A DNA stretch of 64,000 nucleotides. Origin: Salinicoccus halitifaciens. GTDB taxonomy: Bacteria > Bacillota > Bacilli > Staphylococcales > Salinicoccaceae. The translations under genes were made by a program, and so were the position numbers. Position 1 is the first letter of the stretch, and the number at the start of each line of letters is the position of its first letter. The DNA lies in contig NZ_JAJNCU010000004.1 in assembly GCF_021026095.1 (NCBI RefSeq), forward strand, positions 182,015 to 246,014. Direction: 5' to 3'. Shown here one piece after another: positions 5,797 to 33,076 of this stretch. The notes beneath the pieces were generated by a model. That model saw only the letters and a program-made list of their open reading frames with translations, had not been told where the DNA came from and did not search any database.

Positions 5797-6390
5797 TCAT
5801 TTCCCGCGTTTTCTCCTGACTCTGTGCAGCCCGTTTACGATCGCCCTTTCACTCACGCAGAGCTTTTCGCTGATCTCTTTAATCTCATAACCGTAATCGC
5901 AGTAGTAGACGATCTTCCTTTCGAGCGGGGAACACACTTTCCGGTTGTTGAGTATGTTCATCCTGTTTTCCTCATCCAGGATGATGTCGAGGGGGTCATC
6001 CCGCCTAGTGTTCCTGTAGTCCCCCGCTTCAAAAGTGATGTCCTCCGCAGATTTCAGCATCTCACCTGACTGATGGTCGATCTCCCTGTAGAAGAGCTTC
6101 ATCAATTCATAAGTGATCACTTTGGAAGCATAATGGCGGTAGTTCCCCGCCACCGGGTCATACTTGTGGCACAGCCTCAGCGCAAGCTCCATCATCTCCT
6201 GCAGGGCATCTTCACGATCATGCACAGTGAAAGGGTATTTCAAGGTCTTCCTGAACACGGCGGGCCTGAAATTCTCATCTATCCAGTCGAATGCATCAGT
6301 GTCGCCCCTGCTGACCCTGTATGCACAGCGGTTCATTTCATCATCCAGTGTCTCTTTGATGCAGAAGCGGTGTTCGGCAATCAGATACAT
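5797..6390 (-). CDS. sigH: SigH-like sigma-70 family factor
   Basis: A 197-residue sigma-70 family protein. Region 2 is visible as HDREDALQEMMELALRLCHKYDP followed by YASKVITYELMKLFYREID (about 58-105), and region 4 as the C-terminal helix-turn-helix GYEIKEISEKLCVSERAIVNGL (about 167-188). Its place between rae1 and rpmG is the same as sigH in S. aureus and B. subtilis. In S. aureus SigH drives competence genes; that role is inferred. The start at 6390 follows AAGGGGGGA. The protein is divergent, so promoter specificity cannot be told. Confidence 0.85.
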   Translation of the reverse strand: MYLIAEHRFCIKETLDDEMNRCAYRVSRGDTDAFDWIDENFRPAVFRKTLKYPFTVHDREDALQEMMELALRLCHKYDPVAGNYRHYASKVITYELMKLFYREIDHQSGEMLKSAEDITFEAGDYRNTRRDDPLDIILDEENRMNILNNRKVCSPLERKIVYYCDYGYEIKEISEKLCVSERAIVNGLHRVRRKRGK

Positions 6391-6447
6391 AAACCGTCCC
6401 CCCTTTTATATATAAATATATGGGGAGGCGGATCATTCCTCAAGCTG

Positions 6448-6972
6448 CTATTTCAGGCCCCTTCTCCATTTTTCAAGTTCTGAAAGGACATCCGGACTGA
6501 TATCGAGTTTCTGCCTTGGCAGTTTTTCATTTATTGCATCAATTTCTTTACTGATATTTTTTTCCGAATCCTCAAGCAGCACCCACATCTCCCGTGAGGA
6601 TATCCTGTAGGCGCCGAGTGCAAATATGGCATTCTGTTCGGTCAGGTCGCTTGTGACCACGCTGATCTCGCAAAGGAAAGGATGGTATGTGTCATGCACG
6701 AAACGTTCAATGAACTCATCCGCCGTTTCCTTTTCCTTTGTAAAGATCACGGTGATGCCATGTTTCTCCATGATCGTTTCCATGCTCTTCACTTCATACG
6801 CATCAAACACGATGATGATTTCATAGTTCGAGACCATCTGGTATTCGGCAAGCACCGTCACGACTTCCTCCCTCGCAATTTCAAGAGACGCTTTCGATTC
6901 TGCATGCAGTTCTTTATTGGCACCGATGAGGTTGTAGCCGTCGACGAGCAGAATTCTGCGTTTTTTCCTCAT
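6448..6972 (-). CDS. rae1: Ribosome-associated endoribonuclease Rae1 (YacP, NYN domain)
   Basis: A 174-residue NYN/PIN-like nuclease. The opening ILLVDGYNLIGA carries the first catalytic aspartate, and IIIVFDAYEV and VVTSDLTEQNAIF carry further acidic residues. In B. subtilis Rae1 cleaves mRNA in the ribosomal A site. It lies 4 nt after rlmB in a tight minus-strand run (cysS-mrnC-rlmB-rae1), the usual arrangement, and precedes sigH. Confidence 0.9.
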   Translation of the reverse strand: MRKKRRILLVDGYNLIGANKELHAESKASLEIAREEVVTVLAEYQMVSNYEIIIVFDAYEVKSMETIMEKHGITVIFTKEKETADEFIERFVHDTYHPFLCEISVVTSDLTEQNAIFALGAYRISSREMWVLLEDSEKNISKEIDAINEKLPRQKLDISPDVLSELEKWRRGLK

Positions 6973-6976
6973 ATCA

Positions 6977-7717
6977 TCACGTCCCGGGAGGGTTTTGCTT
7001 CCTGTACACTTCGTACATCAAAAGTGCAGCAGACACCGAGGCATTCAAGCTCGTAATTTCACCATTCATCGGAATTTTGACGATGAAGTCACACTTTTCA
7101 AGCGTCTTTTTGCTGATGCCCTGCCCTTCGCTGCCGATCACAAGGGCGGTGCTCATATTCATGTCCAGTTCACGGTAGTCCGTCTTTCCGCTGCCATCGC
7201 TGCCGACGACCCAGAAACCCTTCTCCTTCAGCCTGTCGATCGTCTGGTTGATGTTGGTGACACGGACGACCGGGATATATTCGATGGCGCCCGTCGATGT
7301 CCTCGCCACCGTTTCGGTCAGCTGGACGGAACGCCTTTTCGGGATGATGACCCCGTCGAAGCCCGCACCGTCGCAGGTCCTTAAAATCGACCCGAGATTA
7401 TGCGGGTCTTCAAGCCCGTCGAGGATGATGACGTTCGCCGTCTCCTTTCCCGAGATGCGCTCCATGAATGTTTCGAGTTCCATGTACTCATGGGCACTGA
7501 TCATCGCTATGATGCCCTGGTGCTTCTCATCAGTCAGCCCGTCCATCTTGCTTTTCGGGACATGCTGGACGATCACTTTCCGGTCCTTCGCCAGGTCCAG
7601 CAGTTCCTTCACCTGGTTTTTATTGATTGTATCCTGAACGAATATTTTGTTGATGTCGCTTTTGGAACGTAATGCCTCCCTCACCGCATTTTTTCCTGCG
7701 ATCACCGATTCAGTCAT
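6977..7717 (-). CDS. rlmB: 23S rRNA (guanosine-2'-O-)-methyltransferase RlmB (SpoU family)
   Basis: A 246-residue SpoU/TrmH methyltransferase. An N-terminal L30e-like substrate-binding domain (about 1-75) is followed by the knotted SPOUT domain with motif 1 DPHNLGSILRT, motif 2 VIGSEGQGIS and motif 3 SLNASVSAALLMYE. It is expected to 2'-O-methylate a peptidyl-transferase-loop guanosine (G2251 in E. coli numbering). Its start overlaps the end of mrnC by 8 nt, pointing to translational coupling. Confidence 0.93.
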   Translation of the reverse strand: MTESVIAGKNAVREALRSKSDINKIFVQDTINKNQVKELLDLAKDRKVIVQHVPKSKMDGLTDEKHQGIIAMISAHEYMELETFMERISGKETANVIILDGLEDPHNLGSILRTCDGAGFDGVIIPKRRSVQLTETVARTSTGAIEYIPVVRVTNINQTIDRLKEKGFWVVGSDGSGKTDYRELDMNMSTALVIGSEGQGISKKTLEKCDFIVKIPMNGEITSLNASVSAALLMYEVYRKQNPPGT

Positions 7718-31820: not shown

Positions 31821-31872
31821 AAAAGGGAAAGCAGGTGGAAAGGCTCAATTAAATTGAGTTTTCCCCCTGCTT
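31821..31872 (-). terminator. Terminator of the small peptide gene
   Basis: Long interrupted stem on the minus strand: AAGCAGG / CCTGCTT, then GGAAA / TTTCC and CTCAATT / AATTGAG, followed by TCCCTTTTT. It isolates the peptide gene from the tRNA promoter. Confidence 0.7.
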
Positions 31873-31938
31873 TTGGGAGCTAATGTATTTATACAAAAAT
31901 GTATAACAAGGTCAAAAGTGCTTCTGAAGATTCATGTC

Positions 31939-32043
31939 TTACATTAAATAAAGGATAGGATCAACCGGCAGACTCTTTGTTCCAACAATTGTGAGTATCC
32001 CCGTCAACGCAATAACAGTAACTAAACGTCTTGCTTTTTTCAT
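31939..32043 (-). CDS. Short signal-type peptide, candidate pheromone precursor of the Rgg-like regulator
   Basis: 34 codons. The N-terminus MKKARRLVTVIALTG is basic then hydrophobic like an export signal; the C-terminus is TKSLPVDPILYLM. The start has a strong Shine-Dalgarno (GGTGGGGGAG, 5 nt upstream), the gene has a -10 box (TATAAT, 32080-32075) and its own terminator, so it is a complete unit. It is divergent from an Rgg-like gene, the layout of rgg/shp and plcR/papR peptide-signalling pairs. Alternatives are a small membrane toxin or a chance ORF. The active peptide, if any, would come from the C-terminal 7-10 residues. Confidence 0.62.
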   Translation of the reverse strand: MKKARRLVTVIALTGILTIVGTKSLPVDPILYLM

Positions 32044-32074
32044 AATATCTCCCCCACCTTTTCTTGATGACTTT

Positions 32075-32123
32075 ATTATACTACGAATATTCTGACTCCA
32101 TTAACTATTTTCATATATGAAAA
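32075..32123 (-). promoter_or_regulatory. Peptide gene promoter with upstream palindrome (candidate Rgg box)
   Basis: TATAAT (32080-32075) with no recognisable -35 (TAATGG at the right place), so an activator is expected. Just upstream is the perfect 16-bp palindrome TTTTCATATATGAAAA (32108-32123), centred near -47 relative to the predicted start, as in Rgg-activated promoters. The palindrome also lies 80 bp before the regulator gene. Confidence 0.55.
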
Positions 32124-32203
32124 CAAAAAGATTATAGTTTTCTTTTTACTTCTCCATGACCATGTAGTATCTTTAATGAAAGCTAACATCAGAGGTGAGG
32201 AAA

Positions 32204-33076
32204 ATGTCAAATCAATCCATAGGTATGCTGCTCAGGGACTTCCGGCAGTCAAGGAACCTGACGATGAAGGAAGTCTGTGATACCGATTTGTCAATCGCCC
32301 AGTTGTCCAAATTCGAGCGCGGTGTCAGTGAACTGACCATCAATAAGCTGCTTGTGATTCTGGACCGGCTCAATATTACCATTGAAGAATTCTTCCATGC
32401 TGAAAAAGAGTTTGAACTGAGTGAATTCGAACAACTTATAAATGATATGAAAGAACACTACATACAACGTGACGTCGAAAAGATCATTGAACTCAGGGAT
32501 GCGCAGCTGAAGAAGTACGAAGAACGGGACATCAAATTCTTCGAGCTCAATGCGATCATGCTCTCAGCACTGATCAAGGACCTCGATGAAGAGCGGTACG
32601 AGAAAAATGAACGGGAAGCCAAATTGATCGATCATCTGATGGAAGTGGATCTTTGGTGCAATTATGAAATCGTCCTGTTCGCCAATTCACTCCCCCTCTT
32701 CACCATCGAATCACTCGTCATGCTGACCAACGAGATGATCAACAACACACAGTATTACCGGGTGATCGGCAAACACCGGACGATGACCATCCAGACATTG
32801 ACGAACGTCATACTGGTCCTTCTGGAAAAAGGGGAAACCGTGCACAGCAAAAAATTCCATGATATTCTGGAAGAACTGCTGGAGACGGACCAATATCTGC
32901 TGTATGAGAAAAATGTCTCTAAATATCTAAGCGGATTCTACCACTACGTGACAGGTGACGAGGACCGTGGCATACAGTTAATGGAAGAATCCATCCATAC
33001 GTTTGATATACTGGACCGGAAGCAGCTCGCCGACAATTTCAGGATGCACCTCGACAATATTCAAATGCAAAAATGA
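32204..33076 (+). CDS. Rgg/PlcR-type (RRNPP) transcriptional regulator
   Basis: 290 residues. An N-terminal XRE helix-turn-helix (about 1-62, GMLLRDFRQSRNLTMKEVCD and LSIAQLSKFERGVSELTINK) closely resembles Rgg/MutR proteins. The rest is all helical, fits TPR-like repeats of the peptide-binding domain and contains LLVILDRLNITIEEFF at the junction. Such proteins bind imported peptides and switch nearby promoters. The ATG at 32204 follows GAGGTGAGG; an in-frame GTG lies three codons before. A divergent peptide gene and a palindrome lie upstream. The C-terminal domain is assigned from pattern only. Confidence 0.82.
   Translation: MSNQSIGMLLRDFRQSRNLTMKEVCDTDLSIAQLSKFERGVSELTINKLLVILDRLNITIEEFFHAEKEFELSEFEQLINDMKEHYIQRDVEKIIELRDAQLKKYEERDIKFFELNAIMLSALIKDLDEERYEKNEREAKLIDHLMEVDLWCNYEIVLFANSLPLFTIESLVMLTNEMINNTQYYRVIGKHRTMTIQTLTNVILVLLEKGETVHSKKFHDILEELLETDQYLLYEKNVSKYLSGFYHYVTGDEDRGIQLMEESIHTFDILDRKQLADNFRMHLDNIQMQK

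Follow-up and report, generated by a model that had tools for sequence, protein, structure and literature searches.

A candidate Rgg/SHP-type signalling pair with a putatively extended propeptide in Salinicoccus halitifaciens

Introduction

Rgg systems have been described mainly in streptococci. In the Rgg2/Rgg3 systems the regulator gene adjoins a gene for a small hydrophobic peptide, and the C-terminal helical-repeat domain binds the peptide in relatives of the regulator described here. PlcR-PapR likewise combines a regulator with an adjoining gene for a small propeptide and a palindromic box. The active signal is the C-terminal end of the peptide in PapR, SHP and ComS alike. For Rgg3, binding to shp promoters has been reported (PMC3150281). 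In streptococci, Rgg systems are known to control the capsule (PMC5913232, PMC6482233): Rgg144 affects capsule genes, and so does an Rgg/Shp system of S. zooepidemicus. For RopB, another Rgg-family receptor, the signals (LCPs) are leaderless and mostly 8-10 residues long, a homologue in S. salivarius has an inverted repeat placed directly before the -35 hexamer, and RopB-clan members were reported in Staphylococcaceae (PMC10518010).

Five biosynthetic clusters with RRNPP systems were reported in Staphylococcaceae with RRNPP_detector (PMC10075063). We found no paper combining Salinicoccus and Rgg, and none combining Macrococcus, Rgg and quorum sensing; supplementary tables of surveys may list these loci. 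The available part of the Salinicoccus roseus genome paper mentions quorum sensing and names neither Rgg nor RRNPP (PMC10642018).

Here we describe a locus of Salinicoccus halitifaciens located in a 64,000-nucleotide stretch of contig NZ_JAJNCU010000004.1 (the window). We assign a probability of about 0.85 to the reading, made from sequence comparison, that it encodes an auto-inducing Rgg/SHP-type intercellular signalling pair. Such a pair would extend the system from streptococci to a salt-tolerant staphylococcal relative, in which the extra tail on the signal peptide is unusual.

Results and Discussion

The regulator gene (positions 32204-33076, plus strand) encodes 290 amino acids with an N-terminal HTH and a C-terminal helical-repeat domain. 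The protein matched Pfam Rgg_C (PF21259) at 2.7e-46 (158 bits, cut-off 27) and HTH_3 (PF01381) at 30.5 bits (cut-off 23), as well as NCBIfam TIGR01716 RGG_Cterm at 9.4e-37 (126.8 bits, cut-off 36.9). The nearest solved chains by sequence, among 21 PDB matches, were Rgg2 (2.2e-29) and Rgg3 (5.9e-28), and a family-profile search of the PDB returned the same two proteins at 2.6e-64 and 1.7e-59. An AlphaFold model built on an 11-row alignment (mean pLDDT 86.7, pTM 0.72) was all helical; Foldseek placed Rgg2 best, followed by Rgg3 and Rgg144, with 57 matches at E ≤0.001. The regulator therefore belongs to the Rgg family of RRNPP regulators, with an HTH and an Rgg_C/RGG_Cterm domain, and the HTH and all-helical C-terminal domain given in the preliminary description were both recovered.

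That description had likened the locus to both rgg/shp and plcR/papR. The first comparison stood, as a short propeptide gene and a candidate operator accompany the regulator; the second failed for the regulator. We rejected a PlcR-PapR assignment, since the protein passes the Rgg_C and RGG_Cterm cut-offs and no PlcR-named chain occurred among the 21 PDB sequence matches or the best 50 of 588 Foldseek rows. The sequence of the PlcR box also differs from the palindrome found here.

The regulator gene faces a propeptide gene of 34 codons on the minus strand (31939-32043), which encodes MKKARRLVTVIALTGILTIVGTKSLPVDPILYLM. Rechecking of this ORF bore out the basic-hydrophobic N-terminus noted earlier. 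The basic N-terminus and hydrophobic segment are followed by an SHP-like core, TGILTIVG (residues 14-21), and a tail, TKSLPVDPILYLM (residues 22-34). The peptide had no match to Pfam, NCBIfam or PHROGs models. Its ribosome-binding site, GGTGGGGGAG (32049-32058, minus strand), is identical in Salinicoccus (Lacicoccus) kekensis and Lacicoccus alkaliphilus. The -10 box is TATAAT (32075-32080, minus strand) and a good -35 is absent. A terminator-like hairpin (31828-31873, minus strand) lies 65 nt past the peptide stop, between the peptide gene and a six-gene tRNA cluster; the 86 nt tested folded with an MFE of -22.9 kcal/mol (z -4.45), equalled by 0 of 200 shuffles. The strong ribosome-binding site, the -10 box lacking a good -35 and the terminator-like hairpin all held up when they were read again.

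A perfect 16-bp palindrome, TTTTCATATATGAAAA (32108-32123), is separated from the -10 of the peptide gene by exactly 27 nt. It had been described as sitting just upstream of the missing -35, and its position and conservation next to the -35 region mark it as a candidate operator, the putative binding site of the regulator. The exact palindrome occurs as a single copy in the 2.68-Mb genome. The association of peptide gene, regulator and palindrome is confirmed as a real observation beyond chance.

Among 60 genomes, the window's own included, full-length regulator matches of at least 37% identity were found in five members of the genus and in Phocicoccus schoeneichii (G013, 37%). The genus members are the window's genome (G000), S. 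kekensis (G005, 97%), L. alkaliphilus (G002, 84%), Salinicoccus sp. UBA3372 (G004, 70%) and Salinicoccus sp. YB14-2 (G001, 70%). In the same set G055 gave a match of 27% identity, and most other matches covered the HTH only. The regulator of Macrococcus sp. DPC7161 (G084) is 43% identical to that of the window. At 1e-12 the family profile matched 14 of 157 genomes searched for the order.

The preliminary description would have been refuted by a peptide ORF that was absent or frame-broken in relatives keeping the regulator. This was not the case: the ORF is intact in all four regulator-bearing genus members with readable flanks (the window, kekensis, alkaliphilus and YB14-2) and in Phocicoccus schoeneichii. 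The kekensis peptide differs from that of the window by a single change (YVM for YLM); the others read MKRAMSFITAIALTGILTIVGTKSLPVDPILYLM in alkaliphilus, MNKRIVTLMILAVTGILIIVGEKSIPIDMIAQFI in YB14-2 and MKRFTPKFILFLGIYFIIDLEPIIEGSLPVTQLF in Phocicoccus. The pattern of synonymous and nonsynonymous changes fits selection, in small numbers. An adjacent short propeptide gene, the arrangement of Rgg/SHP systems, is thus kept in the relatives, and in Macrococcus it lies one gene further off, upstream of a protease gene that precedes the regulator. The exact palindrome stands upstream of the regulator in all five regulator-bearing genus members, and in Phocicoccus it has one mismatch. In UBA3372 the contig stops at the palindrome, so that the peptide region is out of reach; at its start (L053, 1-72) the sequence folds back on itself around the palindrome, which is probably an assembly artefact.

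The peptide gene and the regulator were lost together in one genus member, G003, which keeps the tRNA cluster and a cupin gene with neither member of the pair between them. G009 retains a C-terminal remnant of the regulator only. No palindrome within 1 mismatch was found in G003 or G009.

The small ORF might instead encode a short membrane peptide, toxin or leader that is under Rgg control and carries no signal, as a basic N-terminus and a hydrophobic segment also suit small membrane peptides. We consider this improbable. The ORF stays beside an Rgg regulator in the four readable genus members and Phocicoccus, it is missing along with the regulator in G003, and its promoter layout is held in common with SHP genes (see below). 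One finding runs against the signalling pair: an insertion in YB14-2 between the -10 and the ribosome-binding site has severed the peptide ORF from its promoter, both ORF and regulator being intact.

The YB14-2 insertion (L048, about 6040-7700) bears a transposase split in two ORFs, presumably IS110-like, and constitutes a natural separation of promoter and peptide.

The distance of 27 nt between the palindrome and the -10 is kept in the window, kekensis, alkaliphilus (-10 TACAAT), the stranded promoter of YB14-2 and Phocicoccus (-10 TATCAT). Macrococcus shows the same layout before its peptide MKLKLQRLMTFGLGILIVVTLDDSISNLANLR, with the operator ATTTCATATATGATAA and the -10 TATGAT. We scanned 56 upstream regions, namely 55 regulator loci and the Macrococcus peptide region, which was added once found, for a palindrome-like 16-mer (at least 12 of 16 positions matching) and compared spacings of 8-49 nt to a -10. 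A spacing of exactly 27 nt occurred in 12 of the 56 regions and the next commonest in 5, some of the loci coming from close relatives and hence not being independent. At thresholds of 11 and 13 the figures for 27 nt and the next spacing were 15 versus 10 and 6 versus 4. The layout is missing from 44 of the 56 regions at threshold 12.

A small ORF with a ribosome-binding site comes after eight of the 12 layouts, those of kekensis, alkaliphilus, Macrococcus, Phocicoccus, Aerococcus (MKQKILSLLTTIAIFGIIGVL), Pilibacter (MFYLNILELFEKITGFWE), Lactococcus nasutitermitis (MKKSKLKWIIFLAFDIIIISKFAAILPTLLK) and Vagococcus (MDIIIITPRGGGLVVVGP). The remaining four comprise YB14-2, split by its insertion, two Streptococcus layouts that point toward the regulator, and one without an ORF. 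Eleven regions, picked after the scan and hence not blind, were compared with 300 dinucleotide shuffles each; the layout was present in 10 of them and in 0-9 of the shuffles, and was absent from Lapidilactobacillus. The 18-residue ORFs of Pilibacter termitis (L076, 3763-3819, minus strand) and Vagococcus allomyrinae (L098, 3827-3883, minus strand) face Rgg genes, and the Pilibacter regulator is split in two frames.

A second scan of 79 regions combined the core CATATATG (at least 7 of 8 positions), a -10 and a small ORF; here 31 nt is the equivalent spacing. This spacing led with 12 regions, the window among them, versus 4 for the next; of the 12 ORFs, two or more (L054, L184) appear to be chance occurrences. 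In a sample of the class, 53 of 398 genomes matched at 1e-20; 30 loci were read, and the combination of core, spacing and small ORF was present in five of them, the window included, and missing from 25. The operator layout is not general among Rgg relatives, which likewise weighs against the signalling pair.

Three loci of one genus (L168, L176 and L177), probably Streptococcus as judged by its SHPs, combine the CATATATG core and the same spacing with the SHP genes MKNQKLLPLLFLLFEGIIIIVVG, MKKQKILPLLLFLLEGIIIIGVG and MKKQKLLPLLFLILGGIMIIVVG, which end in EGIIIIVVG, EGIIIIGVG and GGIMIIVVG. We take these loci to be of the Rgg144-SHP144 type. The window locus resembles them in the Gly-Ile peptide core, the operator core and its spacing to the -10. 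It differs in that its regulator is 22% identical to the solved Rgg144 by Foldseek, and in that Shp144 has no tail, its active form being the C-terminal 12 residues (PMC5913232). The position of the palindrome is not new, as the S. salivarius RopB homologue also has an inverted repeat just before its -35 (PMC10518010); the CATATATG layout common to these genera was not found in the available parts of the literature on Rgg systems.

We rejected an assignment to RopB/LCP, whose signals have no leader, in view of the 34-residue propeptide with its basic-hydrophobic leader; the half-sites reported for that system also differ (PMC10518010). The Shp of S. zooepidemicus is unlike SHP2/3; it has 25 residues, where the peptide here has 34, and is active as its C-terminal 7 residues (PMC6482233). 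Rgg2 and Rgg3 are the closest solved regulators to that of the window, but the Lacicoccus core starts with T, in the place where SHP2/3 have D, and carries a 13-residue tail. By sequence, the stretch that follows the SHP-like core sets the pair apart from canonical SHPs, and the leader sets it apart from RopB/LCP.

The distribution of codon changes within the peptide was compared between species, in small counts throughout. Between the window and alkaliphilus, synonymous/nonsynonymous changes numbered 0/6 in residues 1-13, 4/0 in residues 14-21 and 1/0 in residues 22-34; between the window and YB14-2 they numbered 1/10, 4/1 and 2/8. The values for residues 14-21 make TGILTIVG the best-kept block of the peptide on sequence comparison, and not the C-terminus, to which conservation had been expected to be limited. 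The statement that the peptide resembles no known pheromone likewise has to be given up, as this core resembles streptococcal SHPs. Residues 1-21 are comparable to a whole SHP propeptide (for example the 23-residue ones of the probable streptococcal loci) in length and pattern, with 13 residues added. An SHP-like core may thus have been extended at its C-terminus by TKSLPVDPILYLM.

Other peptides combine a core and a tail. That of Macrococcus has LGILIVVT plus 12 residues, that of Phocicoccus has a weaker core, and another was found in a further Bacilli genome (MKKFVRNHFVDIVHILGILIVVSVPLVNL), in which no such operator was found. G055 and G143, both probably Staphylococcus, encode DVIIIVGG plus the 13-residue YMHRFTPKSLDTI and DIIIIVGG plus 34 residues. 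The cores follow the patterns G-I-[IL]-x-[IV]-[IV] or DxIIIVGG, and the tails mostly have 7 to 16 residues, 34 in one.

The locus raises the question of what processing an SHP-like core undergoes within a longer peptide, and how it is read. Within an Rgg/SHP pair, the mature pheromone could be TGILTIVG or a peptide containing it, with TKSLPVDPILYLM as an extension to be trimmed. This is a real possibility, which we put a little short of even. The low number of replacements in residues 14-21 relative to the tail argues for it, as does Gly-Ile at positions 13-16, which recurs in Lacicoccus, Macrococcus, Phocicoccus, Aerococcus (L063) and the three probable streptococcal peptides; the tailed DVIIIVGG of G055 agrees with it too. 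However, Gly-Ile is missing from the Vagococcus, Pilibacter and Lactococcus peptides and from that of L164, which is related to the Aerococcus one. The changed codons are few, and a conserved core could reflect membrane insertion or processing. The trimming step would be without known precedent, and the active peptide of characterised systems is the C-terminal end, as in Shp144 (PMC5913232).

With even odds, the mature pheromone would consist of the C-terminal 7-13 residues within TKSLPVDPILYLM, and the core would be only a membrane segment. The tail is near-invariant across the window, kekensis and alkaliphilus (one change), KS[LI]P[VI]D is shared with YB14-2, and SLPV appears again in Phocicoccus. 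A signal in this segment would fit the C-terminal rule of PapR, SHP and ComS. On the other hand, with 8 of 13 residues changed from the window to YB14-2, the tail has diverged further than the core, and in Macrococcus it can no longer be recognised. The SLPV match in Phocicoccus was rejected as proof of a shared code, four residues being too short.

Candidate targets were sought with the palindrome. A second copy lies upstream of a Wzz-like gene, with 1 mismatch in the window's genome, 0 in kekensis and 1 in alkaliphilus. In the window's genome it lies inside a polysaccharide cluster, which encodes a sugar transferase, a glycosyltransferase, Wzz, an AAA_31 ATPase (tyrosine-kinase-like), Polysacc_synt_2 and a DegT aminotransferase; of the eight proteins tested, two scored above no family cut-off. 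Because this palindrome precedes a Wzz/kinase-like operon in three species, the exopolysaccharide operon is a plausible, if weak, candidate target of the regulator in Lacicoccus. A backwards-pattern control within 1 mismatch gave 0 matches in six of seven genomes and 1 in kekensis. The site was kept as a candidate but downgraded: it has no -10 at 27 nt, and no leader ORF with a ribosome-binding site recurs on the coding strand. Fourteen of its 16 columns are invariant, and 39 of 454 intergenic 16-column windows are equally or more conserved. The Wzz-like protein had no match in YB14-2, G003 or UBA3372, and therefore no regulator-free congener tests the site. G012 has a 52% Wzz homologue; it lacks an Rgg match at 1e-12 and also a palindrome within 1 mismatch.

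Two second polysaccharide loci were read and contained no palindrome site. Sites with 2 mismatches numbered 23 (6 in the window's genome, 7 in alkaliphilus, 6 in kekensis and 4 in G012), of which 8 were inspected (3, 3, 2 and 0). Those that recurred, at the start of an rpoC-like gene (by eye), at the start codon of a solute-binding protein and inside an ORF, were dropped as coding. Two alkaliphilus sites were also dropped, one being intergenic without a counterpart and one lying at an ORF start. Of the sites within 1 mismatch, one in YB14-2 was rejected as lying inside coding sequence and one in kekensis as having no clear promoter context.

In Phocicoccus (L006, 153-1402, minus strand) a subtilase gene that encodes a signal-like N-terminus comes directly after the peptide gene, which suggests a co-transcribed protease output. 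In Macrococcus sp. DPC7161 the peptide gene (2130-2228), a thermolysin-type protease gene and the Rgg regulator gene run in one direction. Two CATATATG sites, at 1957 and 2054, lie upstream in this locus (L055, 1957-4849).

The Rgg-type peptide signalling pair put forward in the preliminary description is supported by the regulator family and its predicted fold, the conserved and jointly lost peptide gene, and the conserved palindrome and spacing. Export of the 34-residue propeptide would probably run through an EcsAB/PptAB-type transporter; after trimming, an oligopeptide permease would bring the peptide back into the cell. The genome holds one EcsB (PptB-like) match and 16 SBP_bac_5 matches, which are permissive and not specific. 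The imported peptide would then bind the helical-repeat domain of the Rgg regulator, a dimer of which is predicted to occupy TTTTCATATATGAAAA, right next to the weak -35 region and 27 nt from the -10. Activation of the peptide promoter from this position would create a positive feedback loop. Further outputs would probably include surface or secreted factors: the exopolysaccharide operon in Lacicoccus (weak) and, from gene order, secreted proteases in Phocicoccus and Macrococcus. With its defined operator and peptide and its candidate outputs, the conserved pair of halotolerant Lacicoccus offers a testable signalling channel.

More tentatively, and with odds somewhat below even, some Staphylococcales and their neighbours might use C-terminally extended SHPs with a fast-changing tail. 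Either the core would be freed by carboxy-side trimming, or the tail would be a species-specific signal and the old pheromone would now serve as a membrane segment. The circuit would keep the operator layout of the probable streptococcal SHP loci; it would control exopolysaccharide in Lacicoccus, and in Phocicoccus and Macrococcus its targets would be secreted proteases.

Two loci, probably of Staphylococcus, L155 (1262-1435, minus strand) and L007 (1290-1400, minus strand), have Rgg regulators with DIIIIVGG/DVIIIVGG SHP-like genes that overrun the streptococcal SHP end. Both SHP-like genes lie near a gene that, judged by eye, appears to encode a radical-SAM enzyme.
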